From Rhodoferax sediminis (GTDB taxonomy: Bacteria; Pseudomonadota; Gammaproteobacteria; Burkholderiales; Burkholderiaceae_C): a stretch of 64,000 bases of DNA. The notes beneath the pieces are model-generated. The model had not been told where the DNA came from. It saw only the letters and a program-made list of their open reading frames with translations, and searched no databases. The number at the start of each line of letters is the position of its first letter. Within the stretch, counting starts at the first letter, position 1. The stretch is from the NCBI RefSeq assembly GCF_006970865.1, contig NZ_CP035503.1, positions 186,001 through 250,000 of the forward strand, given 5' to 3'. Below are positions 25,184 through 37,205 of this stretch, in pieces. The position numbers were made by a program, and so were the translations under genes.

Positions 25184-26029
25184 ATGACACAGACCCCCTC
25201 CCAACCGGTGCACGGCACCGCTGCCGCCCCGCACCGAATTGCCGTGGCCGGCGCCAGCGGCCGCATGGGCCATATGCTGATCGAGGCCATCCGGGCCGCG
25301 GACGACTGCCAGCTGGCCGGCGCACTGGACATGGGCCAGAGTCCGGCGATCGGCCTCGATGCGGCGGCCTTCCTGGGGCACGCCAGCGGCGTTCCCATTA
25401 CCTTCGACGTGCGCGCCGGCCTGCAAAACGCGCAGGTCCTCATCGACTTCACGCGCCCCGAGGGCACGCTGGCGCACCTGCGGGTGTGCCGTGAGCTGGG
25501 CGTGAACGCGGTGATCGGCACCACCGGCTTCAGCGATGCGCAAAAGCTGGAGATCGCCGCCGCCGCGAAAGACATCGCCATCATGATGGCGCCCAACATG
25601 AGCGTGGGCGTCAACGTCACGCTCAAGCTGCTGGAGATGGCGGCCCGGGGGCTGGCCACCGGCTACGACATCGAAATCATCGAGGCCCATCATCGCCACA
25701 AGGTCGACGCGCCCTCGGGCACGGCGCTGAAGATGGGCGAGGTCGTCGCTGGCGCGCTGGGGCGCGACCTGAAGGACTGCGCCGTGTATGCGCGCGAGGG
25801 CATCACCGGCGAACGCGACCCGTCCACCATCGGCTTTGCCAGCATCCGCGGTGGCGACATCGTGGGCGACCACACCGTGCTGTTCGCCGGCATCGGCGAG
25901 CGCATCGAAATCACCCACAAATCGTCCAGCCGCGCCACCTACGCGCAGGGCAGCCTGCGCGCGGTGCGCTACCTGGCCGGGCGCCGCGCCGGCCTGTTCG
26001 ACATGTTCGACGTGCTGGGCCTGAAGTAA
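25184..26029 (+). CDS. dapB: 4-hydroxy-tetrahydrodipicolinate reductase
   Basis: NAD(P)H-dependent reductase of the lysine/diaminopimelate pathway, 281 aa. N-terminal nucleotide site [15 protein letters not shown], the motif VIGTTGF and the catalytic region [15 protein letters not shown] are all intact. Compared with E. coli DapB the N-terminus carries about 15 extra residues. Two nucleotides separate its stop from the exbB-like ATG. Confidence 0.97.
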
Positions 26030-26031
26030 AC

Positions 26032-26694
26032 ATGGGCGTGTGGGCGCTGTTCGCGCAGGGAGACCTCATCACCAAACTGGTCACGGCGCTGCTGCTCCTC
26101 ATGTCGGTCGCCAGCTGGGTCGTGATCCTGTGGAAGACCTGGCTGCTGCGCCGCGCCGGCGGCGACGTGGGCCGCAGTACGGCGGCTTTCTGGCAATCCG
26201 CGACGGTCGACGAGGCGCGCCAGCGTGTAGCAGCCTTTGACCGCGAAGTCCTTGTGCTGCCTTTGATTGCGGCCATCAAAACGCAAGCGCCGCAAACGCT
26301 GGCCAGCGCCGGCGACCGCTCCCAGCAACTGACCCGGGTGCTGCGCGACGCGCTGCATGGCGTGCTGCGCAAGCTGCAGTTCGGCCAGGTGTTGCTGGCC
26401 ACGGTGGGCTCTACGGCGCCGTTTGTCGGCTTGCTGGGCACGGTCTGGGGCATCTACCACGCGCTCATCGGCATCTCCGGGGCCGGCCAGATCACCATCG
26501 ACAAGGTCGCCGGCCCGGTGGGCGAGGCGCTGATCATGACCGCGGCCGGTCTGGCAGTGGCGATTCCGGCGGTGCTGGCCTACAACGTGCTCGGGCGCTT
26601 TGTCGGCAGCATCGAGGCCGACCTCGAAGGCTTTGCCCGCGACATTCGCGAATTGATGGCAAGCCATCCGGGCGAGCGCTCGCCTCATCCCTGA
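26032..26694 (+). CDS. exbB: MotA/TolQ/ExbB-family proton channel protein
   Basis: Inner-membrane subunit of an energy-transducing complex that harnesses the proton motive force. It is 220 aa with three hydrophobic segments (ITKLVTALLLLMSVASWVVIL; VGSTAPFVGLLGTVWGIYHA; AAGLAVAIPAVLAYNVLG) and the family's Thr/Gly pattern in helices 2-3. It sits between dapB and exbD. With no tonB, tolA, tolB or pal nearby, whether it serves TonB- or Tol-type partners cannot be decided from context. Confidence 0.9.
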   Translation: MGVWALFAQGDLITKLVTALLLLMSVASWVVILWKTWLLRRAGGDVGRSTAAFWQSATVDEARQRVAAFDREVLVLPLIAAIKTQAPQTLASAGDRSQQLTRVLRDALHGVLRKLQFGQVLLATVGSTAPFVGLLGTVWGIYHALIGISGAGQITIDKVAGPVGEALIMTAAGLAVAIPAVLAYNVLGRFVGSIEADLEGFARDIRELMASHPGERSPHP

Positions 26695-26715
26695 TTCGAT
26701 GCCACGGGCTGCACC

Positions 26716-27144
26716 ATGGGTTTTGGCCGTTTAGAGCGCAGCGAGCGCCCGACGCCGATGAGCGACATCAACATGACGCCGCTGGTCGACGTCATGATGG
26801 TGCTGGTGGTGATTTTCATCCTCACCGCGCCGCTGCTGGCCAGCTCGATCCGTCTGGATTTGCCCCAAACCGGTGCGGCCGGCCCCAGTGATGCGCCCAA
26901 GTTCGTCACCCTGGTGGTTGACAAGACGGGCCAGGCGTTCCTGAACGACAAGCCCGTGACCCAGGCCGAACTCGCCGCCAGCCTGGTTGAGACGGCCGCC
27001 CGCAACCCCGACACCGAGGTGCAGCTGCGTGCCGACCAGGCGGTGCCGTACGGGCGCGTGGTGCAGGTCATGGGCGCGGCGCAACAGGCGGGGCTGAACC
27101 GGATTGGCTTCGTTGCCGATCCGCCCAGGCCGGCGCCAAAGTAA
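26716..27144 (+). CDS. exbD: ExbD/TolR-family biopolymer transport protein
   Basis: Partner of the preceding channel protein, 142 aa: short cytoplasmic N-terminus, one membrane helix with the essential aspartate in NMTPLVDVMMVLVVIFILTA, and a periplasmic domain of about 95 residues. The helix begins near residue 20, as in ExbD and TolR. It lies 21 nt after exbB and 98 nt before leuS. Confidence 0.9.
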   Translation: MGFGRLERSERPTPMSDINMTPLVDVMMVLVVIFILTAPLLASSIRLDLPQTGAAGPSDAPKFVTLVVDKTGQAFLNDKPVTQAELAASLVETAARNPDTEVQLRADQAVPYGRVVQVMGAAQQAGLNRIGFVADPPRPAPK

Positions 27145-27242
27145 GCGCGCCCCACGCGCGCGGCTGCAGCGCCTAAAATCCAGCATTCGTGCAGGACCGC
27201 TCCGTGCCTGCAACCTCATCGCTGCGACAGGTTCCCTCTTCC

Positions 27243-29912
27243 ATGCAAGAAAAATACAGCCATCTCGACGTAGAACAAGCGGCGCACGCCCACTGGACAG
27301 CGGTGGATGCCTACCGCGTCACCGAGAGCGCGCGGGACGCGCGCGGCGAGCTCCGAAAGAAGTTCTACGCCTGCTCCATGCTGCCCTACCCCAGCGGCAA
27401 GCTGCACATGGGTCATGTGCGCAACTACACCATCAACGACATGCTCACGCGCTACCTGCGCATGAACGGCTACAACGTGCTGATGCCCATGGGCTGGGAC
27501 GCGTTCGGTCTGCCCGCGGAAAACGCCGCCATGAAAAATGGCGTGCCGCCCGCCAAGTGGACCTACGACAACATCGCCTACATGAAGCAGCAGATGCAGG
27601 CGATGGGTCTGGCGATCGACTGGAGCCGCGAGGTGGCGACCTGCGACCCCACGTACTACAAATGGAACCAGTGGCTGTTCCTGAAGATGCTGGAAAAAGG
27701 CATTGCCTACCGCAAGACGCAGGTCGTCAACTGGGACCCGGTCGACCAGACCGTGCTGGCCAACGAGCAGGTGATCGACGGCAAGGGCTGGCGCACCGGC
27801 GCGCCGGTGGAAAAGCGCGAAATCCCGGGCTACTACCTCAAGATCACCGACTACGCGGAGGAGCTGCTGGAGCAGGTGCAGACCGGGCTGCCGGGCTGGC
27901 CCGAGCGCGTCAAGCTGATGCAGGAAAACTGGATCGGCAAGAGCGAGGGCGTGCGCTTCGCCTTCAAGCACGACATCCGGGGCGACGACGGTGCGCTGAT
28001 CCAGGACGGCCGCATGTACGTGTTCACCACGCGCGCCGACACCATCATGGGTGTGACTTTTTGCGCCGTGGCGCCCGAGCATCCACTGGCCACGCAGGCC
28101 GCCAGATCCAACCCGAAGCTCGCGGCCTTCATCGAAGCGTGCAAGAAGGGTGGTACCACCGAGGCCGAGCTTGCCGCACGCGAAAAAGAAGGCATGTTCA
28201 CCGGCCTGTACGTGACGCACCCGCTGGAGGGCGATCCGATTCCGCTGTGGGTCGGCAACTACGTGCTGATGGGCTATGGCGACGGCGCCGTGATGGGTGT
28301 GCCCGCGCACGACGAACGCGATTTCGCCTTCGCGAAGAAATATGGCCTGCAGATCAAGCAGGTGGTACTGGTGGACGGCGAGCACTACGACTTCCACCAC
28401 TGGCAGGACTGGTATGCCGACAAGGCGGCGGGCGTCACCATCAACTCCGACAGCTTCAGCGGCATGGGCTTGCAGGAGGCCGTGCTGGCCGTGGCGCACG
28501 CACTCAAGCGCAAGGGCCTGGGCGAGTTGCGCACGACGTGGCGCCTGCGCGACTGGGGTGTGAGCCGCCAGCGCTACTGGGGCACGCCGATCCCCATCAT
28601 CCACTGCCCCGAACACGGCGCGGTGCCGGTGCCGGAAAAAGATTTGCCCGTAGTGCTGCCGCAGGACTGTGTGCCCGACGGCTCGGGCAACCCGCTGCTC
28701 AAACACGAAGGCTTCCACGCCGGCGTGACCTGCCCGATCTGCGGCCAGGCGGCGCGGCGCGAAACCGACACCATGGACACCTTTGTCGATTCGTCCTGGT
28801 ACTTCATGCGCTACTGCGATCCGAAGAACGAGCAGGCCATGGTGGCCGAGGGCGCGGCCTACTGGATGCCGATGGACCAGTACATCGGCGGCATCGAGCA
28901 CGCCATCCTGCACCTGCTGTATGCGCGCTTCTGGACCAAGGTGATGCGCGACCTCGGCCTGGTCAGGGTCGACGAGCCCTTCACCAGGCTGCTGACCCAG
29001 GGCATGGTGCTGAACCACATCTACTCGCGCAAGAACGAAAAGGGCGGCATCGAGTACTTCTGGCCGCACGACGTCGAGCCCGTGATCGACCCGGACGGCA
29101 AGCAGGTGGGCGCCCGACTCAAGAACGCCGTCGGCGACCTGCCGGCCGGCCTGCTGATCGACTATGAAGGCGTGGGCACCATGTCCAAGTCGAAGAACAA
29201 CGGCGTCGATCCGCAGGACCTGATCGAGAAATACGGCGCCGACACCGCGCGCCTGTACACCATGTTCACCGCGCCGCCCGAGGCCACGCTGGAGTGGAAC
29301 GACCTGGCGGTCGAGGGCTCGTACCGCTTCCTCAGGCGGGTCTGGGGGTTTGCTGCGAAAAACGTAGCTGTCTATGCAGGTGGGACAAGGGCCAGGGTCG
29401 AATTTGACTCAAAAGCCAAGGCACTGCGACTGGAAATCCACAGCCTGCTCAAGCAGGTGGACTACGACTACCAGCGCATGCAGTACAACACCGTCGTCTC
29501 GGGCGCGATGAAGATGCTCAACGCGCTGGAGAGCTTCAAGAACGACGGCTCGGCGAGCAGCCACGCCGCGCTGGCCGAGGGCTTTGGCATCCTGCTGCGC
29601 TGCCTGTACCCGGTCGCGCCGCACATCACCCATGCCCTGTGGCAGGAACTCGGGCTGGCCGCACAGCATGGCGAGCTGCTCGATGCGCCCTGGCCCCAAG
29701 TCGATCCGCAGGCGCTGGAACAGGACGAGCTGGAGCTCGTGCTGCAGGTCAATGGCAAGCTGCGCGGCGCCATCCGCGTGCCCGCAGGCGCCAGCCGCGA
29801 GGCGATCGAACGCATCGCGACGCGCAGCGAGGCCTTCATCAAGGTGGCCGACGGTGCGAAGCCGAAAAAGATCATCGTGGTGCCGGGCCGTCTCGTCAAC
29901 GTGGTGATTTGA
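27243..29912 (+). CDS. leuS: leucyl-tRNA synthetase
   Basis: Class I synthetase charging tRNA-Leu, 889 aa. The HIGH-type motif is in [15 protein letters not shown] (about residues 48-62), the editing domain threonine-rich region is [12 protein letters not shown], and the KMSKS motif is MSKSKNN (about residue 645). The start [14 protein letters not shown] is the family N-terminus; the frame is open 18 codons further upstream without similarity. In the loop after RFLRRVWGF (about residues 700-725) the DNA resembles a family A repeat. The protein length there equals that of E. coli, so any insertion must have replaced sequence or fallen in a variable loop. The stop is 2 nt from the lptE start. 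Confidence 0.97.
29364..29410 (+). repeat. Possible family A repeat inside leuS
   Basis: GTAGCTGTCTATGC, TGGGACAAGGGCCAGGGTC and AATTTGACT follow the same order and spacing as the reference copy at 19403 (about three quarters identical by eye). It encodes part of a loop in LeuS without breaking the frame. Confidence 0.45.
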
Positions 29913-29914
29913 CC

Positions 29915-30406
29915 GTGCAGCGCCGTTTGATCCTGGTGACCGCGGGCGCGGGCCTGCTCACGGCCTGCGGCTTCCAGCTGCGCCAGGCGCCCCACTTTGC
30001 GTTCACCTCGCTGTACAGCGCGGCCGCCACCCCGCTGGGCAACGAGCTCAAGCGCGACCTGGTGGCCGGTGGCAAATTGCAGGTGATCAGCGACGCCAAG
30101 CAGATCGACAGCGCCCAGGTCATTCTGGATATTCTGGGGGACCAGCGCGAGCGCGTGGTGGTGGCGCTGAACTCCGCGGGCCAGGTGCGCGAGCTGGAGC
30201 TGCGCCTGCGCGTGCGGTTCAGGCTGCGCAGCAAGGATGGCAAGGAGCTGATTCCCGAGACCGAGCTGCTGCAGCGGCGCAACGTCAGCTACAACTCCTC
30301 CGTGGTGCTGGCCAAGGAGGCCGAGGAAGCCCTGCTGTACCGCGACATGCAGACCGACGTCGTGCAGCAGCTCATGCGCCGCCTCGCGGCCGTGAAGGAA
30401 ATATGA
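29915..30406 (+). CDS. lptE: LPS-assembly lipoprotein LptE
   Basis: Outer-membrane lipoprotein that plugs LptD and helps lipopolysaccharide reach the cell surface. It is 163 aa; GTG start two nt after the leuS stop, signal peptide ending in lipobox LTAC with mature start CGFQLRQ, a known LptE opening. Segments RVVVALNSAGQVREL, ELRLRVRFRL and LYRDMQTDVVQQLMRRL fit the family. In relatives lptE is directly followed by holA; here about 3 kb intervene. Confidence 0.92.
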   Translation: MQRRLILVTAGAGLLTACGFQLRQAPHFAFTSLYSAAATPLGNELKRDLVAGGKLQVISDAKQIDSAQVILDILGDQRERVVVALNSAGQVRELELRLRVRFRLRSKDGKELIPETELLQRRNVSYNSSVVLAKEAEEALLYRDMQTDVVQQLMRRLAAVKEI

Positions 30407-30414
30407 AGCTTTGC

Positions 30415-30453
30415 GGGACAGACCGTAGCGCCAGCGGCGCGGAGCTCTGTCCC
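30415..30453. repeat. Hairpin repeat after lptE
   Basis: Perfect 8-bp arms GGGACAGA and TCTGTCCC with a GC-rich 23 nt loop (CCGTAGCGCCAGCGGCGCGG inside). It begins 9 nt after the lptE stop, so it may terminate or process the leuS-lptE transcript. It resembles GGGACAG...CTGTCCC elements I recall from Burkholderiales genomes, but no second copy is obvious in this window. Confidence 0.5.
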
Positions 30454-30480
30454 CAACTGACTAGAGGGCCGGACTGAGTC

Positions 30481-30957
30481 ATGCCGCTCGACCCCACCGA
30501 CCGCAAACTGCTGGCCGCGCTGCAGCGCGATGGCCGCGCCAGCATGGAGGCGCTGTCGCAGCTGGTGCACCTGTCGGCGCGCGCCACCCTGAACCGGGTG
30601 CGCAAGCTGGAGGCCGATGGCCACATCGAGGGCTACCGCGCCGTACTGGCGCGCGCCAGCCTGGGCGAGCATGTCTCCGTGTTTGCCGAGATCGCGCTGA
30701 AGGACCAGCGCCGGGCCACGGCGCAGCGTTTCGAGCGACACATGCTGGCCTGCCCCGAGGTGGTGGCCTGTTATTTGATCAGCGGCCGCTATGACTACCT
30801 GGTGCGCGTGGCCTGCCGCGACCTGGCCCATTACCGCGACCTGACCAGCGTCTGGCTGGACGATGTGACGCTGGGCATCGAAAAAATCATGACCAACACC
30901 GAGCTGCAAACTGTCAAGGAATTTGCCGGCTTCCCGTTACCGCTGGTCAAGCCCTGA
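30481..30957 (+). CDS. Lrp/AsnC-family transcriptional regulator
   Basis: Amino-acid-responsive regulator, 158 aa: N-terminal helix-turn-helix (DPTDRKLLAALQRDGRASME; LSARATLNRVRKLEADGHIEGY) and C-terminal RAM/AsnC ligand domain (about residues 65-150). It stands directly upstream of the ornithine aminotransferase/dihydrolase gene on the same strand. Such genes commonly control adjacent arginine/ornithine catabolism in response to those amino acids. A perfect 15-bp palindrome 6 nt after its stop is a candidate operator. Confidence 0.92.
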   Translation: MPLDPTDRKLLAALQRDGRASMEALSQLVHLSARATLNRVRKLEADGHIEGYRAVLARASLGEHVSVFAEIALKDQRRATAQRFERHMLACPEVVACYLISGRYDYLVRVACRDLAHYRDLTSVWLDDVTLGIEKIMTNTELQTVKEFAGFPLPLVKP

Positions 30958-30963
30958 GGCCAT

Positions 30964-30978
30964 CTTCCGAATCGGAAG
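30964..30978. promoter_or_regulatory. Candidate Lrp/AsnC operator
   Basis: Perfect palindrome CTTCCGA-A-TCGGAAG, centred about 110 nt before the ATG of the rocD-type gene and immediately after its presumed regulator. Size and symmetry suit an Lrp/AsnC dimer site. Confidence 0.4.
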
Positions 30979-31081
30979 TTCAAGGTCCATGCCGCGGCCG
31001 GCCCGACCGGGCCGGCGCGCCCATCTTCACCACTGCCGCAGCCTCTTGCGACCTACACTGATTTCCATCAAGGAGATCATC

Positions 31082-33391
31082 ATGACTATCGAAAAAAGAG
31101 CGGCAACGCAAGAATTTATCAAGGCTGAGGCGCAATTCTGTGCGCACAACTACCATCCGGTGCCGGTCGTGGTGGAGCGTGCGCGCGACTGCCTGGTGTG
31201 GGACGTGGAGGGCCGCGAATACCTCGACATGATGAGTGCGTATTCCGCCGTCAGTCACGGCCATCTGCACCCGCGGCTGGTCGCGGCGGCGACGCGCCAG
31301 CTGCAGCAGGTGGCGGTCACCTCGCGCGCGTTTCACAGCACGGTGCTGGGGCCGTTCCTGGAAAAGCTCTGCCGGCTCGCCGGCTTCGAGCAGGCCCTGC
31401 CGATGAACACCGGCGCCGAGGCGGTGGAAACCGCCATCAAGGCGGCGCGCCGCTGGGGCCACCGTGTCAAGGGAATCGCCGACGGCACGGCCGAAATCCT
31501 GGTGGCGCGCAGCAACTTCCACGGCCGCACTACCACCGTGATCAGCGCGTCGAGCGAGCCTGACTACAAGGCCGGCTTCGGGCCCCTCACGCCCGGCTTC
31601 AGGTTCTTTGATTTCGGCGATATGGCCAGCGTGCGCGCGGCCGCCTCGCCCCGCACCTGCGCCGTGCTGGTGGAGCCGATCCAGGGCGAGGCCGGCATCG
31701 TGCTGCCGCCGCCCGGCTTCTTCACCGAGCTGCGCGACTGGTGCAATGAACACAACATCCTGCTGATTCTCGACGAGGTGCAGTCGGGCCTGGGGCGCAC
31801 CGGGCGCTGGTTCGCGTTCGAGCACGAGGGCATCCGGCCCGACGCGCTGATCCTGGGCAAGGCGCTGGGCGGCGGGTTGCTGCCGGTCAGCGCGTTCCTG
31901 GCCGACCACGCCGTGATGGACGTGTTCACCCCCGGCAGCCACGGCTCCACCTTCGGCGGCAACGCGCTCGCCGCCGCAGTCGCTCTGGAGGCCCTGCAGG
32001 TGATGGAAGACGAGAACCTGGTGGCGCGCAGCGCGGCGCTGGGCCGGCACTTGCTGGCGCGGCTGCAGGCGGTGCAGCCCGCGGCCGCGCCGCTGATCCG
32101 CGCCGTGCGCGGCCGCGGACTGTGGGTGGGCGTGGAGATGGACCCGGCACTGGCCAATGCGCGCGAGGTGGTCGAGCGCATGGCGGCGCACGGCGTGCTG
32201 TCCAAGGAAACCCACGAGACCGTGATCCGCTTCGCCCCGCCGCTGACCATCACGCGCGACCAGATCGACCGGGCCGTGGATGTGTTTGCGCAAATTGTCC
32301 TTGCCATGCGGCCGAAGCCTGCTATACATTCGGGAGCAAATGCGCCATCGCCACGTCCCCTGCAGGAGACCACCGCCATGACCGATTCGCCGTCCGCGTC
32401 CGAGGCCAATGCAGCGCCGGCGCCGCATCTGCTAATGAGCCCGCCCGACTACTTTGAAGTCAGCTACGCCATCAACCCCTGGATGGACCCGACGCGCTGG
32501 TCGCTCGACGCGCGGCGCCTGTCGCAGGACGCGCACACCGGCTGGGTGGCCTTGAAGCAGCGCTACGAAGCGCTGGGCGCCCGGGTGGTGGTCAAGCCCG
32601 CCGCCCATGGCCAGCCCGACCTGGTGTTCACGGCCAATTGCGCCGTGGTGCTGGACGGCAAGGTGGTGCTCGCGCGCTACCTGAATGCCGAGCGCCAGGG
32701 CGAGGAAGAACACGGCCAGCGCCTGTTCGAGCAGTTGCTCGCGCGCGGCGAGGTCGATTCGCTGCATCGCACACCCGAGAGTGTGTTTTTCGAGGGCGCG
32801 GGTGACGCCATTTTCGATGCTGGGCGCGGCATCATGTGGATGGGCTACGGCCAGCGCTCCAGCATGCAGGCGCGCCACACGATAGCGCAGGTGTTCGGTA
32901 TCCCGACGCTCGCGCTGGAGCTGATCGACCCGCGCTTCTACCACCTCGACACCTGCTTTTGCCTGCTCTCGGGCGGCGAAGTGCTGTACTACCCCGAGGC
33001 CTTCACCGAGGCCGGCCGCGCGCAGATCCGGGCCGTGGCGGGCGAACACCTGATCGAGGCCGGCGCCGACGACGCGCTGCACTTGGGCGTGAATTCGGTG
33101 TGCATCGGCCGCGATGTCGTGATGTGCCACTGCAGCGCGCCGCTGCGCGAGCGGTTGACGGCGCGCGGCTATCGCGTTCACGTGGTGCCGCTGGGCTCGT
33201 TCAACCGTTCCGGCGGCGCGGCCTACTGCCTGACCCTGAAGCTGAACAATATCTATCAGGGGCGCGTGGGGGCGGATGAACGCCGCGACGGGCCGCCCCG
33301 AGCAAGTTCGGCCCCCTCGGGGGGCAGCGCAGCACACGCAGTGGCCAGCGTGGGGGCGAACGAGCCTCAACCCTGGCCCAAGGCCGCGTAA
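31082..33391 (+). CDS. ornithine aminotransferase fused to arginine dihydrolase-like guanidino hydrolase
   Basis: A 769 aa frame with two complete enzymes. Residues 1 to about 410 are ornithine aminotransferase (RocD): GAEAVETAIKAARRWG, Asp231 in DEVQSGLGRTG and PLP lysine Lys260 in LILGKALGGG. Residues about 449-727 are a guanidino-modifying hydrolase resembling the arginine dihydrolase domain of cyanobacterial ArgZ/AgrE: LLMSPPDYFEVSYAINPWM, DLVFTAN (Asn519), FFEGAGD (Glu571, Asp575), YHLDTCF (His621) and catalytic-type Cys716 in AAYCLTL. Together they would turn arginine into ornithine and then glutamate semialdehyde. AAGGAG precedes the ATG at 31082. The roughly 35-residue linker contains an internal ATG (32378) with its own AGGAG, so two proteins may be made. 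The last 40 residues come from a dispersed repeat. Confidence 0.82.
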   Translation: MTIEKRAATQEFIKAEAQFCAHNYHPVPVVVERARDCLVWDVEGREYLDMMSAYSAVSHGHLHPRLVAAATRQLQQVAVTSRAFHSTVLGPFLEKLCRLAGFEQALPMNTGAEAVETAIKAARRWGHRVKGIADGTAEILVARSNFHGRTTTVISASSEPDYKAGFGPLTPGFRFFDFGDMASVRAAASPRTCAVLVEPIQGEAGIVLPPPGFFTELRDWCNEHNILLILDEVQSGLGRTGRWFAFEHEGIRPDALILGKALGGGLLPVSAFLADHAVMDVFTPGSHGSTFGGNALAAAVALEALQVMEDENLVARSAALGRHLLARLQAVQPAAAPLIRAVRGRGLWVGVEMDPALANAREVVERMAAHGVLSKETHETVIRFAPPLTITRDQIDRAVDVFAQIVLAMRPKPAIHSGANAPSPRPLQETTAMTDSPSASEANAAPAPHLLMSPPDYFEVSYAINPWMDPTRWSLDARRLSQDAHTGWVALKQRYEALGARVVVKPAAHGQPDLVFTANCAVVLDGKVVLARYLNAERQGEEEHGQRLFEQLLARGEVDSLHRTPESVFFEGAGDAIFDAGRGIMWMGYGQRSSMQARHTIAQVFGIPTLALELIDPRFYHLDTCFCLLSGGEVLYYPEAFTEAGRAQIRAVAGEHLIEAGADDALHLGVNSVCIGRDVVMCHCSAPLRERLTARGYRVHVVPLGSFNRSGGAAYCLTLKLNNIYQGRVGADERRDGPPRASSAPSGGSAAHAVASVGANEPQPWPKAA
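32301..32380 (+). promoter_or_regulatory. Internal promoter, ribosome site and ATG before the dihydrolase half
   Basis: TTGCCA (32301-32306) and TATACA (32323-32328) are separated by 16 nt, followed by AGGAG (32364-32368) and an in-frame ATG at 32378 (MTDSPSASEA). The combination lies exactly in the linker between the two enzyme domains and would give a free 337 aa dihydrolase. Confidence 0.45.
33310..33356 (+). repeat. Family B repeat at the 3' end of the fused gene
   Basis: GGCCCCCTCGGGGGG, CAGCGCAGCACACGCAGTGG and CCAGCGTGGGGG form the reverse complement of the 23018 copy with few differences. It is translated as part of the protein tail (APSGGSAAHAVASVG). Confidence 0.7.
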
Positions 33392-33403
33392 ACTGGCGCA
33401 CTC

Positions 33404-34501
33404 ATGCAGCTCGCTCCGGCCCAACTCCCGCAACACCTCCAGCGCGGACTCAAACCCCTGTACACCCTGCACGGCGACGAGCCGCTGCTGATCCAGGAGG
33501 CGGCCGACGCGTTGCGCGCCGCCGCCAGGGTCCAGGGCTACACCGAGCGCACGGTGCACACGGTGGCCGGTGCCAACTTCGACTGGAGCGAGGTGCTGGC
33601 GGCGGGCGGCTCGCTGAGCCTGTTTGCCGACAAGCAGATCGTCGAGGTCCGCATTCCCTCGGGCAAGCCCGGCAAGGAGGGCAGCGAGGCGCTGCAGCAA
33701 CTGGCCGCGCAGGCGCAGGGCAATGACAGCACGCTGACCCTGGTGCTGCTGCCGCGGCTCGACAAGGCGACCAAATCCGGGGCCTGGTTCGCGGCGCTGG
33801 AGAGCTTTGGCGTCACGCTGCAGGTCGAGCCGGTGGAGCGCGGCGCGCTGCCGCCCTGGATCGCCCAGCGCCTGCAGGCCCAGGGCCAGCGCGTCAGCTC
33901 GGGCGAGGCCGGGCAGCGCACGCTGCAGTTTTTTGCCGACCGGGTGGAGGGCAACCTGCTGGCGGCGCACCAGGAAATCCAGAAGCTGGCGCTGCTGTAC
34001 CCGCAGGGCGAGTTGACGTTCGAGCAGATCGAGCGCGCCGTGCTCAACGTCGCGCGCTACGATGTGTTCAAGCTGTCCGAGGCGGTGCTCGGCGGCCAGA
34101 TCGGGCGCATGACGCGCATGCTCGACGGGCTGCAGGCCGAGGGCGAGGCCGAGGTGCTGGTGCACTACACGCTGGCCGAGGACATCCGCGCGCTCAAGCG
34201 CGTGAAGGACGCGATTGGCGCAGGGCGCCCGCTGCCCATGGCGCTGCGCGAGCAGCGCATCTGGGGCCTGAAGGAGCGCCTGTTCGAGCGCGCGCTGCCG
34301 CGCCTGACCGACACCGCGCTGGCCAATTTGCTGTACGCGGCGCACCAGGTCGACGGCATCGTCAAGGGCCTCAAGCAACCCGACTGGCCGGAGGATGGCT
34401 GGCAGGCGCTGCACCGGCTCGCGACCACGCTGTGCCGCGAGTGCGCGGTGCTGCCTGCCAGAGGCGCCGGCACGCCGCTGCGTGCCAAAATAGGGGTATG
34501 A
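33404..34501 (+). CDS. holA: DNA polymerase III delta subunit
   Basis: Clamp-loader subunit that opens the sliding clamp, 365 aa. Similarity to HolA runs from the N-terminal [21 protein letters not shown] (the conserved GDEPLL) through [15 protein letters not shown] to [17 protein letters not shown] near the C-terminus. It starts 12 nt after the preceding stop. Its own stop overlaps the proA start (ATGA). Confidence 0.95.
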
Positions 34502-35838
34502 ACGCACCCAGTGATAGCCCCACGCTTGCCGCTTCGGGCCTCGACATCGCCGACTACACGCGGACCCTGGGTTTGCAGGCGAAAGCGGCTTCAGCCCTGA
34601 TGGCGCGTGCGGATACAGCTATCAAAAATGCAGCACTGCGCAAACTCGCGAGCCTGCTGCGCAGCAGCGGCCCGGCGCTGCAGGTGGAGAACGCGAAGGA
34701 CATCGAGCGCGCCGTCGCGGCCGGCCTGGCCGCGCCGCTGGTGGACCGGCTGGGGCTCAGCCCCAAGGTGCTGGAGACCTGCGCCCAGGGCTGCGAGCAG
34801 CTGGCCGCCATGCCCGACATCATTGGCGAGATCACGGCGCTGCGCCAGCAGCCCAGCGGCATCCGCGTCGGGCAGATGCGTGTGCCGATCGGCGTGTTCG
34901 GCATGATTTTCGAAAGCCGCCCCAACGTGACCATCGAGGCCGCCAGCCTGTCGATCAAGAGCGGCAACGCCTGCATCCTGCGCGGCGGCTCGGAAGCGAT
35001 CGAATCCAACAAGGCGCTCGCGAAACTGGTGCAGCAGGCGCTGGTCGAGAGCGGCCTGCCGGCCCACGCCGTGCAGCTGGTGCAGACCACCGACCGCGAG
35101 GTGGTCGGCCAGCTCATCACGATGCCGCAGTTTGTCGACGTGATCATTCCGCGCGGCGGCAAGGGGCTGATCGAGCGCATCTCGCGCGATGCCAGGGTGC
35201 CGGTCATCAAGCACCTGGACGGCAACTGCCATGTCTACGTCGACGACCCCTGCGACATCGACATGGCCGTGAAGGTGGCCGACAACGCCAAGACCAGCAA
35301 GTACAGCCCCTGCAACGCCAGCGAAGGGCTGCTGGTGGCGCGCGGCGTGGCGCAGGAATTCCTGCCGAAGATCGGCGCCATCTACGCGGCCAAGGGCGTG
35401 GAGATGCGCTGCGACCTGGAAGCCGCACAGATCCTGCGAGCGGCCGTTCAACCCGGCTCTGTTGAGGGCCGGCGTGCGCCGATGATCGAGGCCGCCACCG
35501 AGCAGGACTGGTACGAGGAATATCTCGCGCCCATCATCAGCGTGAAGGTGGTGGCGGGGCTGAACGAAGCCATTGCGCACATCAACCAGTACTCCAGCCA
35601 CCATACCGACGCGATCCTGACGCGCGACCACATGCACGCGCAGCGCTTCCTGCGCGAGGTCGATTCGGCCAGCGTGATGGTGAATGCCAGCACGCGCTTT
35701 GCCGACGGCTTCGAGTTTGGCCTGGGCGCCGAAATCGGCATCAGCACCGACAAGTTCCATGCGCGCGGGCCGGTCGGGATCGAGGGGCTGACGTCGCTGA
35801 AGTACGTTGTATTGGGTCAGGGCGAAGTGCGCAGCTAG
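34498..35838 (+). CDS. proA: gamma-glutamyl phosphate reductase
   Basis: Second step of proline synthesis: NADPH-dependent reduction of glutamyl-5-phosphate to glutamate-5-semialdehyde. It is 446 aa, within an aldehyde-dehydrogenase-like fold; catalytic cysteine in [11 protein letters not shown], cofactor loop [11 protein letters not shown], and the C-terminal [14 protein letters not shown] and [13 protein letters not shown]. Translationally coupled to holA. Its product is the same semialdehyde that the upstream RocD half generates, so proline synthesis and arginine breakdown meet at one metabolite here. Confidence 0.97.
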
Positions 35839-35915
35839 TGCATTTGTATTTGTTGCTCGCGGCGCATTTGTCGGGTAGTGTCGATATCCCGCCGGACACA
35901 AAAGAAAGAAACTTC

Positions 35916-37205
35916 ATGAGTGCATCCATGACCAGCGCCGCGCCGCGGCCCAAGGCCACGCCAAAAGTGATTGCCGCGATCACGATCGGCAATGGCCTGG
36001 AGTTCTTCGATTTCACCGTCTACGGCTATTTCGCCATCGTGATCGGCCAGCTGTTCTTCCCGGTCAAGGACAAGGCCTACGAGCTGATGCTGGCGCTCGG
36101 CACCTTCGGCATCGCGTTCGTCGCGCGGCCGATCGGCGGCCTGGTGCTCGGGCTGTTCGCCGACAAGGTGGGGCGCAAGCCGGCGATGACACTGACGCTG
36201 ATCCTGATGGCGCTGGGTGCGCTCGGCGTCGCGGTCGCGCCGACCTACGCGCAGATTGGCCTTTGGGCGCCGGTCTGGCTGACCGTGGCACGACTGGTGC
36301 AGGGCTTCGCGCTGGGCGGCGAGGTCGGTGCATCGACCTCGCTGTTGCTCGAATACGCCGACGACCACAGCCGCGGCTATTTCGGTAGCTGGCAGTTCGT
36401 CAGCCAGGGTTTCAGTTCGCTGCTCGGTGCGGGCGTTGCCGCGCTGCTGACCAACACGCTGTCGCACGACGCGCTCTACAGCTGGGGCTGGCGCATCCCG
36501 TTCTTCATCGGTGTGCTGATGGTGCCGGTCGGCGTCTACATCCGGCGCCATCTCGACGAGACGCTGGGCCATCGGGCGCACGCTGACGAGAGCGCGAAGG
36601 CCAAGCTCAAGGAGGCGTTCAGCACCCATGCGAAGCTGATCTGGTCCGGCGTGCTCCTGATCTGGGGCGGCACGGTGGCGACCTACCTCATCGTCTTCTA
36701 CTTCCCCACCTATGCAAAGCAGTATCTCGGCATGCCGCTGTCGGTGAGCCTGTGGGCCGGCGTCACCGCGTCGGCGATCCTGATCCCGGTATCGATCTTT
36801 GCCGGCCGGCTGTCGGACCGGGTGGGCCGGATCCCGGTCACCTGGTGGTCGCGGCTGGCCCTGGTGCTGCTGGTGGTGCCGGGCTTCATGCTGCTGGTGC
36901 ACTACCGCACTCCGGCAGTACTGCTCGGGGTGGTCGCGGTGCTGTCGGTGCTGCTTGCGCTGCAGGCCTCGCCGGGCATCACCTTCATCACCGAACTCTA
37001 TCCGCGGCCGATCCGCGCCACGTCGCTGTCGGTCGTCTACAGCCTGGGCGTCGCGATCTTTGGTGGCACGGCTCAGGTGATCGCAACCTGGCTGATCAAA
37101 CTCACCGGCAGCGAACTTGCGCCGGCCTGGTACATGATCGTCGCGACGCTGCTCTCGTCGCTGCCCTTCCTCTGGCTGAAGGAAACCGCCGGTAAGCCGA
37201 TTTAG
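35916..37205 (+). CDS. MHS-family MFS metabolite/H+ symporter
   Basis: Twelve-helix symporter of the metabolite:H+ symporter family (citrate, proline/betaine and dicarboxylate carriers), 429 aa. Features: GNGLEFFDFTVYGYFA in helix 1, GLFADKVGRKPAM in loop 2-3, RLVQGFALGGEVGAS in helix 4 and ELYPRPIRATSLSV in helix 10-11 loop, close to citrate-proton symporters. I start at the ATG at 35916 rather than 78 nt earlier because similarity begins shortly after. It lies between proA and gshA and looks like a single-gene unit; substrate remains a guess. Confidence 0.88.
   Translation: MSASMTSAAPRPKATPKVIAAITIGNGLEFFDFTVYGYFAIVIGQLFFPVKDKAYELMLALGTFGIAFVARPIGGLVLGLFADKVGRKPAMTLTLILMALGALGVAVAPTYAQIGLWAPVWLTVARLVQGFALGGEVGASTSLLLEYADDHSRGYFGSWQFVSQGFSSLLGAGVAALLTNTLSHDALYSWGWRIPFFIGVLMVPVGVYIRRHLDETLGHRAHADESAKAKLKEAFSTHAKLIWSGVLLIWGGTVATYLIVFYFPTYAKQYLGMPLSVSLWAGVTASAILIPVSIFAGRLSDRVGRIPVTWWSRLALVLLVVPGFMLLVHYRTPAVLLGVVAVLSVLLALQASPGITFITELYPRPIRATSLSVVYSLGVAIFGGTAQVIATWLIKLTGSELAPAWYMIVATLLSSLPFLWLKETAGKPI

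Follow-up and report, generated by a model that had tools for sequence, protein, structure and literature searches.

A RocD and ArgZ-like dihydrolase fusion in Rhodoferax sediminis with a promoter-like element in its linker codons

The 64,000-nucleotide stretch of Rhodoferax sediminis DNA analyzed here (the window; from a single-contig genome of 4.39 Mb) carries at positions 31082-33391 of the plus strand a gene in which an ornithine aminotransferase (RocD) is joined in one frame to an ArgZ-like arginine dihydrolase. The protein is quite probably a bifunctional enzyme converting arginine to glutamate semialdehyde, with a nested second promoter within the gene in the subclade to which the window belongs. 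The fusion is a domain architecture of two known enzyme families, and its predicted function appears well supported. The promoter-like element in the linker codons is the strongest new point and was not mentioned in the preliminary description, which was made from the letters of the window and had proposed the fusion. The parts of the protein are as follows.

31082..32314, plus strand: RocD half, residues 1-411, with Asp231 and the pyridoxal phosphate (PLP) lysine Lys260, assigned from TIGR01885, the match to 3ruy and invariant residues.
32315..32431, plus strand: linker between the two domains, about residues 412-450, open in 22/22 fusions and differing among them in length and sequence, delimited also by model confidence.
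32378..33265, plus strand: putative ArgZ-like arginine dihydrolase half, assigned from phmmer matches to ArgZ/AgrE and conserved active-site residues.

Translation of 31082-33391 was free of stops and gave 769 residues, as the preliminary description had reported; extended mechanically, the same frame reached 822 residues from an upstream TTG and 832 from stop to stop. Pfam models placed Aminotran_3 at residues 20-406 (411.7 bits) and DDAH_eukar at residues 480-716 (49.6 bits, above cut-off), with ADI slightly below its cut-off. After duplicates were dropped before locus counts (L136, equal to L013; L055, equal to L046; L063, equal to L049; L044, equal to L053), 22 distinct fusions were obtained, each one open frame, so that a check of domain architecture found RocD and dihydrolase in one frame in 22 distinct genomes. 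Asp231, Lys260, Asn519, Glu571, His621 and Cys716, all correctly numbered in the preliminary description, did not vary across the 22 aligned fusions. A stop or frameshift had been suspected at 32320-32377; because 22 distinct genomes keep the same frame through linkers of different length (37-74 residues between anchors, open in 22/22), that doubt is answered, the frame is real and the fusion is no sequencing accident. A structure predicted with AlphaFold2 from a 22-sequence input was modest (predicted local distance difference test, pLDDT, 75.2; predicted template modeling score, pTM, 0.52), and pLDDT fell below 50 at residues 412-444, in the linker, and in the C-terminal tail.

By family, residues 1-411 are an ornithine aminotransferase. 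This half scored 492.6 bits on TIGR01885 (ornithine--oxo-acid transaminase; cut-off 378.4) and 513.2 bits on the stricter NF003145, short of 656. RocD 3ruy was the closest PDB entry (E 7.5e-126) and the top Foldseek match of the model (TM-score 0.91 on the target), sharing the whole N-terminal half, fold and residues; it is an ordinary RocD of 392 residues without a C-terminal hydrolase, whereas the fusion protein has one. Because the Foldseek matches considered (the best 50 of 1810) all fell on the aminotransferase half, the fold of the second half was assigned from sequence matches. Besides Lys260 and Asp231, residues Tyr24, Tyr54, Arg149, Glu203 and Arg383 were invariant in the 22 fusions; judged by motif, these correspond to the substrate residues Tyr55, Tyr85, Arg180, Glu235 and Arg413 of human ornithine aminotransferase. 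Five further class-III aminotransferase matches in the genome all scored lower on the Pfam model. Two such matches, L003 (3205254-3209444) and L004 (2600419-2604609), lie on opposite strands with identical score and length, perhaps a recent duplication.

The preliminary description had likened the second half to cyanobacterial ArgZ/AgrE and had named an aminotransferase as its ornithine-consuming partner, on the side opposite to the partner in AgrE. Both points were upheld by family models, PDB matches, active-site residues, trees and neighboring genes. Searched against PDB with phmmer, the second half matched ArgZ 6jv0 (E 1.9e-56) and AgrE 6lrf (E 4.4e-54) most closely, with DDAH1 next at E 0.004. 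The best NCBIfam models were bifunctional ArgZ (231 bits) and arginine dihydrolase NF052232 (230.3 bits; cut-off 450), followed by the Mycobacterium tuberculosis (Mtb)-type dimethylargininase NF045659 (209.5 bits; cut-off 300), while arginine deiminase TIGR01078 gave 21.7 bits against 489.1 and citrulline hydrolase CtlX NF046062 gave 21 bits against 334. The match to NF052231 (AgrE/ArgZ bifunctional) spanned only positions 7-275 of 696; the hydrolase is followed by a short tail, with no ornithine cyclodeaminase domain. As controls, the AgrE-type L107 scored 513 on the dihydrolase model, above its cut-off, and 235 on the dimethylargininase model, and the actinobacterial L157-L159 scored 190-202 and 406-438, respectively, the latter above the NF045659 cut-off.

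Asn465, Asn519, Glu571, His621 and Cys716 align with N22, N71, E118, H168 and C264 of ArgZ, which we take to be catalytic, and were conserved in 22/22 fusions. In the alignment, 6juz has Ser at the place of ArgZ N71. Asn occupied this place in 22/22 fusions, 15/15 AgrE-type proteins, 19/19 unfused proteobacterial rocD neighbors, 49/49 other solo rows (those with no neighbor within short flanks), L160 and 3/3 actinobacterial rows, and Asp in 3/3 references of the arginine deiminase (ADI) and dimethylarginine dimethylaminohydrolase (DDAH) families (L161, L162, L164). Two points weigh against a dihydrolase: no curated model reached its cut-off with the second half, and L157-L159, over the dimethylargininase cut-off, have the same Asn, which alone is thus not decisive. 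The residue separates the second half from the ADI/DDAH references, but not from the Mtb-type dimethylargininases. By its scores the second half lies far from either curated group, though slightly closer to the dihydrolases; it is no member of NF052232, and the name "ArgZ-like" is used for it. Because the scores lie below the cut-offs and the Asn is common to dimethylargininases, its reaction is put forward as a prediction.

That the second half is instead a DDAH or another guanidine hydrolase making citrulline, the two halves forming no pathway, we consider improbable. The rank of NF045659 directly after the dihydrolase models (209.5 against 230-231 bits, none at cut-off), the Pfam name DDAH_eukar and the Asn shared with actinobacterial proteins over the NF045659 cut-off speak for such an enzyme. 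The nearest structures, however, were ArgZ and AgrE (E about 1e-56 to 1e-53) and DDAH1 reached just E 0.004, a true AgrE-type protein (L107) also scored 235 on NF045659, the residue at the N71 place is Asn and not the Asp of the three ADI/DDAH-family references, and the domain repeatedly adjoins rocD, the substrate of which is ornithine and not citrulline.

In a sample of the family, the dihydrolase domain occurred in 15/399 genomes, that of the window included, 13 of them having it in one frame with RocD. An order-wide sample had it in 16/399 genomes, two of which carried it fused, both of the genus of the window, and 14 without RocD in frame; among 398 genomes of a phylum-wide sample, only the same two matched both halves (at an E limit of 1e-100 and with two candidates per genome scored). 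The genome_contigs set, limited to the best 80 of 581 confirmed stretches, comprised 11 RocD fusions, 15 proteins of AgrE type by length (more than 250 residues after the domain, 426-520 in these rows; family models were run on L107 alone), 10 rocD-then-argZ and 7 argZ-then-rocD arrangements, and 37 with neither or not assignable. Neighboring rocD and argZ without fusion were present at 20/115 classified loci. No aminotransferase-dihydrolase fusion was described in the literature searched, the coverage of which was thin for subscription papers. Long open frames upstream of the domain at L076, L088, L133 and L138-L141 were considered as further fusions and rejected, having no RocD match inside; by eye they resemble spurious open frames. 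L150, suggested by the length of its open frame, was likewise rejected, as the locus contained no argZ match.

In a tree of 112 dihydrolase domains, from which the partial rows L052 and L046 and the poorly matching arginine deiminase L163 were left out, the 22 fusions formed one clade with a Shimodaira-Hasegawa-like approximate likelihood ratio (SH-aLRT) of 99 (quick tree, no bootstrap). The clade included two alphaproteobacterial metagenome genomes and lay apart from the cyanobacterial AgrE-type rows, within a larger set with unfused rocD-argZ pairs. A phylogeny that placed the second half with citrulline or dimethylarginine hydrolases had been named in the preliminary description as grounds for abandoning its proposal; the domain fell with ArgZ-like domains and apart from the three ADI/DDAH references, in a tree that held no CtlX sequence. 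In the tree of the RocD halves there was no single fusion clade, and the unfused L065, L068 and L084, together with L150, were intermixed with weak support. The broad outline agreed with the dihydrolase tree, and a joint fusion clade was not rejected (approximately unbiased test, p-AU 0.29). A putative single origin of the fusion rests on the dihydrolase half.

In the proposed mechanism, the C-terminal domain would carry out two hydrolyses of the arginine guanidino group through a covalent intermediate on Cys716, releasing CO2 and two ammonia and leaving ornithine. Through Lys260, the PLP domain at the N-terminus would then transfer the delta-amino group of ornithine to 2-oxoglutarate, yielding glutamate and glutamate-5-semialdehyde/pyrroline-5-carboxylate (P5C), which a PutA-type dehydrogenase encoded elsewhere in the genome would oxidize to glutamate. 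A flexible linker would join the two domains, any channelling between them being conjectural. At E 0.001, searches of the genome for arginase, AstB and Pfam ADI gave no match, the silence of Pfam ADI being weak evidence because the search missed the fusion itself, which lies slightly under that cut-off; a PutA-type P5C dehydrogenase was present above cut-off. Since these matches are lacking and PutA is present, the C-terminal half, the N-terminal half and PutA could together make up a possible complete route from arginine through ornithine and semialdehyde to glutamate. If so, the fusion would account for the conversion of arginine to glutamate in a bacterium that lacks matches to arginase, AstB and deiminase and, like AgrE but differently arranged, would be a second way of linking an arginine dihydrolase with an enzyme that consumes ornithine.

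According to PMC8262935, AgrE is a single protein in which a dihydrolase is coupled to an enzyme consuming ornithine, and in this the fusion is alike. The dihydrolase domains of AgrE (Anabaena Alr4995) and ArgZ (Synechocystis Sll1336) are homologous to that of the fusion and share its active-site residues. The partner in the fusion is an N-terminal PLP ornithine aminotransferase with glutamate semialdehyde as its predicted product, whereas that in AgrE is an ornithine cyclodeaminase forming proline; the fusion falls below the NF052232 cut-off, which the AgrE-type L107 passes, and its dihydrolase domain belongs to another clade than the cyanobacterial AgrE-type rows (in a tree without Sll1336 and Alr4995 themselves). 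Proteobacterial rocD-argZ and argZ-rocD pairs (Herbaspirillum L092, Collimonas L099, Fodinicurvata L069 and others) encode the same enzymes adjacent on one strand but, unlike the fusion, in two frames. In both trees, the unfused pairs lying closest to the fusions were L065, L068 and L084, two of them from named alphaproteobacteria.

Relatives of the two enzymes are also encoded together in the rocD/Rv2323c cluster of M. tuberculosis. According to Hampel et al. 2015 (PMC4569260), arginine induces the cluster, growth on arginine and the flow of arginine carbon into proline and glutamate both depend on Rv2323c, and rocD is broken. The genes there are separate, the hydrolase is annotated as a dimethylarginine hydrolase, and the comparison here was made through the actinobacterial L157-L159, not Rv2323c. 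These three have the ArgZ-type Asn despite passing the dimethylargininase cut-off, and Nonomuraea L158 adjoins rocD. L157-L159, and perhaps Rv2323c-type enzymes too, may be arginine dihydrolases; the rocD neighborhood and the shared Asn raise the question of whether some named dimethylargininases really are.

The linker codons contain the following two features.

32301..32328, plus strand: promoter-like element in coding sequence, TTGCCA at 32301-32306, 16 bp spacer and extended -10 TGC-TATACA at 32320-32328, recognized from scans, rare codons and redraws.
32364..32380, plus strand: AGGAG ribosome-binding-like site at 32364-32368, nine bases, then ATG 32378, recognized from the sequence and relatives.

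A scan of 30800-33700 gave one sigma-70-like site, against 0.1 expected, pairing TTGCCA at 32301 with TACATT at spacing 18. In our own scoring, TTGCCA paired better with TATACA at 32323, at spacing 16 behind an extended -10 TG, and this was the only plus-strand site scoring at least 11 in 26000-36000. The element, mostly in the form TTGAAA-16-TATA, was found at the same place in 8/9 members of the subclade (L037-L042, L045 and L053); none of 55-62 control windows in each of the 8 genes scored as high. When the 8 genes were aligned and codons held by at least 5/8 were counted, CTT was so held at 1/67 Leu columns, GCT at 1/91 Ala columns and ATA at 1/25 Ile columns, and these conserved rare codons (residues 407, 414 and 415, respectively) all lie within the element. 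Synonymous codons were redrawn from the codon usage of each gene, and 0/400 redraws reached the observed score in each of the 8 species. Because the codons are column-specific and no redraw scored as high, selection seems to act on the DNA here, beyond the protein. No other site of at least 9.5 was found at the 8 element-bearing loci between the fetched upstream flank and holA. We read the element as a probable second, nested promoter in the subclade of the window.

Several results weigh against a promoter of this kind. The element was missing in 14/22 fusions, including subclade member L043; in L038 it was found only at spacing 18; four fusions of the Variovorax genus (g86) have holA downstream yet lack it; no sigma-70-like site of at least 8.5 was detected at 30300-31110, ahead of lrp and rocD; and a ribosome site with ATG follows in only 4 of the 8 element-bearing fusions. 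It is quite unlikely, in our estimate, that the element is no promoter and its codons were conserved by chance or by constraint on the protein (motif LE.R...AI). The 8 species do encode similar residues here, and a consensus match is no proof of function; yet the same amino acids with redrawn codons never scored as high in any of the 8, CTT, GCT and ATA were each held by at least 5/8 at a single column inside the element, and no site of at least 9.5 lay elsewhere from the fetched upstream flank to holA. If the element is a promoter, the linker would be protein hinge and promoter at once, with its synonymous codons under selection, and would provide a compact test case for promoters within coding sequence and for selection on such codons.

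A free dihydrolase of 337 residues might start at ATG 32378. In two species of the genus, L038 and L039, AGGAG or AGGAGG followed by ATG occupies the corresponding position, about 50 bases past the -10; L053 has GGAGG before ATG, the candidates in L040, L041 and L042 are loose ones with GTG, and L045 has none. These features would also fit two separate proteins, the linker being translated rarely or not at all and the dihydrolase being expressed separately from a promoter, ribosome site and ATG of its own, as would a stand-alone dihydrolase that follows lptE in a Ramlibacter metagenome (G130), rocD and lrp not having been found between. Such an arrangement is very improbable: the linker stays in frame in 22/22 genomes although its length changes, 12/22 linkers contain no start codon (TTG counted) having even a loose ribosome-site motif, and clade members that lack the element carry the fusion too.

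What else the nested promoter might serve depends on the genes around the fusion, among which is a further feature.

30481..30957, plus strand: Lrp/AsnC-type regulator gene, the likely local regulator of the fusion, assigned from Pfam families and as a recurrent neighbor.

The regulator matched Pfam AsnC_trans_reg and an HTH_AsnC-type model above cut-off and no NCBIfam equivalog above cut-off; family models confirmed the gene names Lrp/AsnC type, leuS, lptE, holA and proA. An Lrp-type homologue (44-69% identity) lay beside 11/11 genome_contigs fusions, on the upstream side in 8 of them and on the downstream side in the other 3. The usual order in relatives, including those without the fusion, was leuS-lptE-holA-proA. 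At 23 fetched holA loci, 6 (all of the genus of the window) had the cassette of Lrp-type gene and fusion or its end, and lptE adjoined holA in 15 of the 17 without it; in the window, Ramlibacter L053 and Variovorax L063, the Lrp-type gene and the fusion sit between lptE and holA. Because the cassette is inserted into ordinary synteny and an Lrp-type gene stands beside 11/11 fusions, the two appear to form a unit with proA a bystander. The preliminary description had linked the product of the fusion to proA, two genes downstream; proA was rejected as a pathway partner, the leuS-lptE-holA-proA order being present in fusion-free relatives. The full-length protein would probably be made under the adjacent Lrp/AsnC-type regulator, and the cassette would interrupt an operon of holA-proA with leuS-lptE.

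The nested promoter might then serve holA-proA only, restoring the operon cut by the cassette, and not the dihydrolase. We regard this restricted role as unlikely, though it retains appreciable weight. The element was present in 8/12 fusions with holA directly downstream and in 0/10 without holA in the fetched flank, L043 lacked both, and in 7/8 cassette-free relatives scanned the roughly 1.5 kb preceding holA held no site scoring 9.5. Against this, the four Variovorax-genus fusions have holA downstream without the element, the window and two relatives carry AGGAG-ATG about 50 bases past the -10, and the lineages behind the counts are not independent. The two uses are compatible: the element may both restore transcription of holA-proA and give a free dihydrolase, a shorter transcript in the subclade of the window leading to the dihydrolase from ATG 32378, to holA-proA transcription, or to both. 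That one gene yields two products in this way, a regulated full-length enzyme and a nested unit giving free dihydrolase and feeding holA-proA, is a tentative proposal to which we give slightly less than even credence.

In the Ramlibacter metagenome G130 (L052 1468-1728, L046 1-795), leuS-lptE is followed by the stand-alone dihydrolase and then by holA-proA, and no rocD or Lrp gene was found between lptE and the dihydrolase (two contig ends). The dihydrolase alone is apparently a natural loss of its partner half.

At 11/11 Cupriavidus loci (L072, L074, L075, L078, L079, L081, L083, L085, L086, L087 and L088), PAN was found in place of the TAN of the fusion. There was no rocD in the fetched flanks of these loci, and 9/11 had a divergent weak Lrp-type match upstream.

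The end of the fusion gene holds one more feature.

33277..33365, plus strand: dispersed genomic repeat of about 80 bp in the C-terminal tail, about residues 732-761, recognized from genome matches and the tail alignment.

This repeat is read in frame within the tail. It had 41 genome matches including itself (40/116 first-look candidates were scored), the others being 81-94% identical; the nearest relative, G002, has a tail without it, and a version of it is present in G005.

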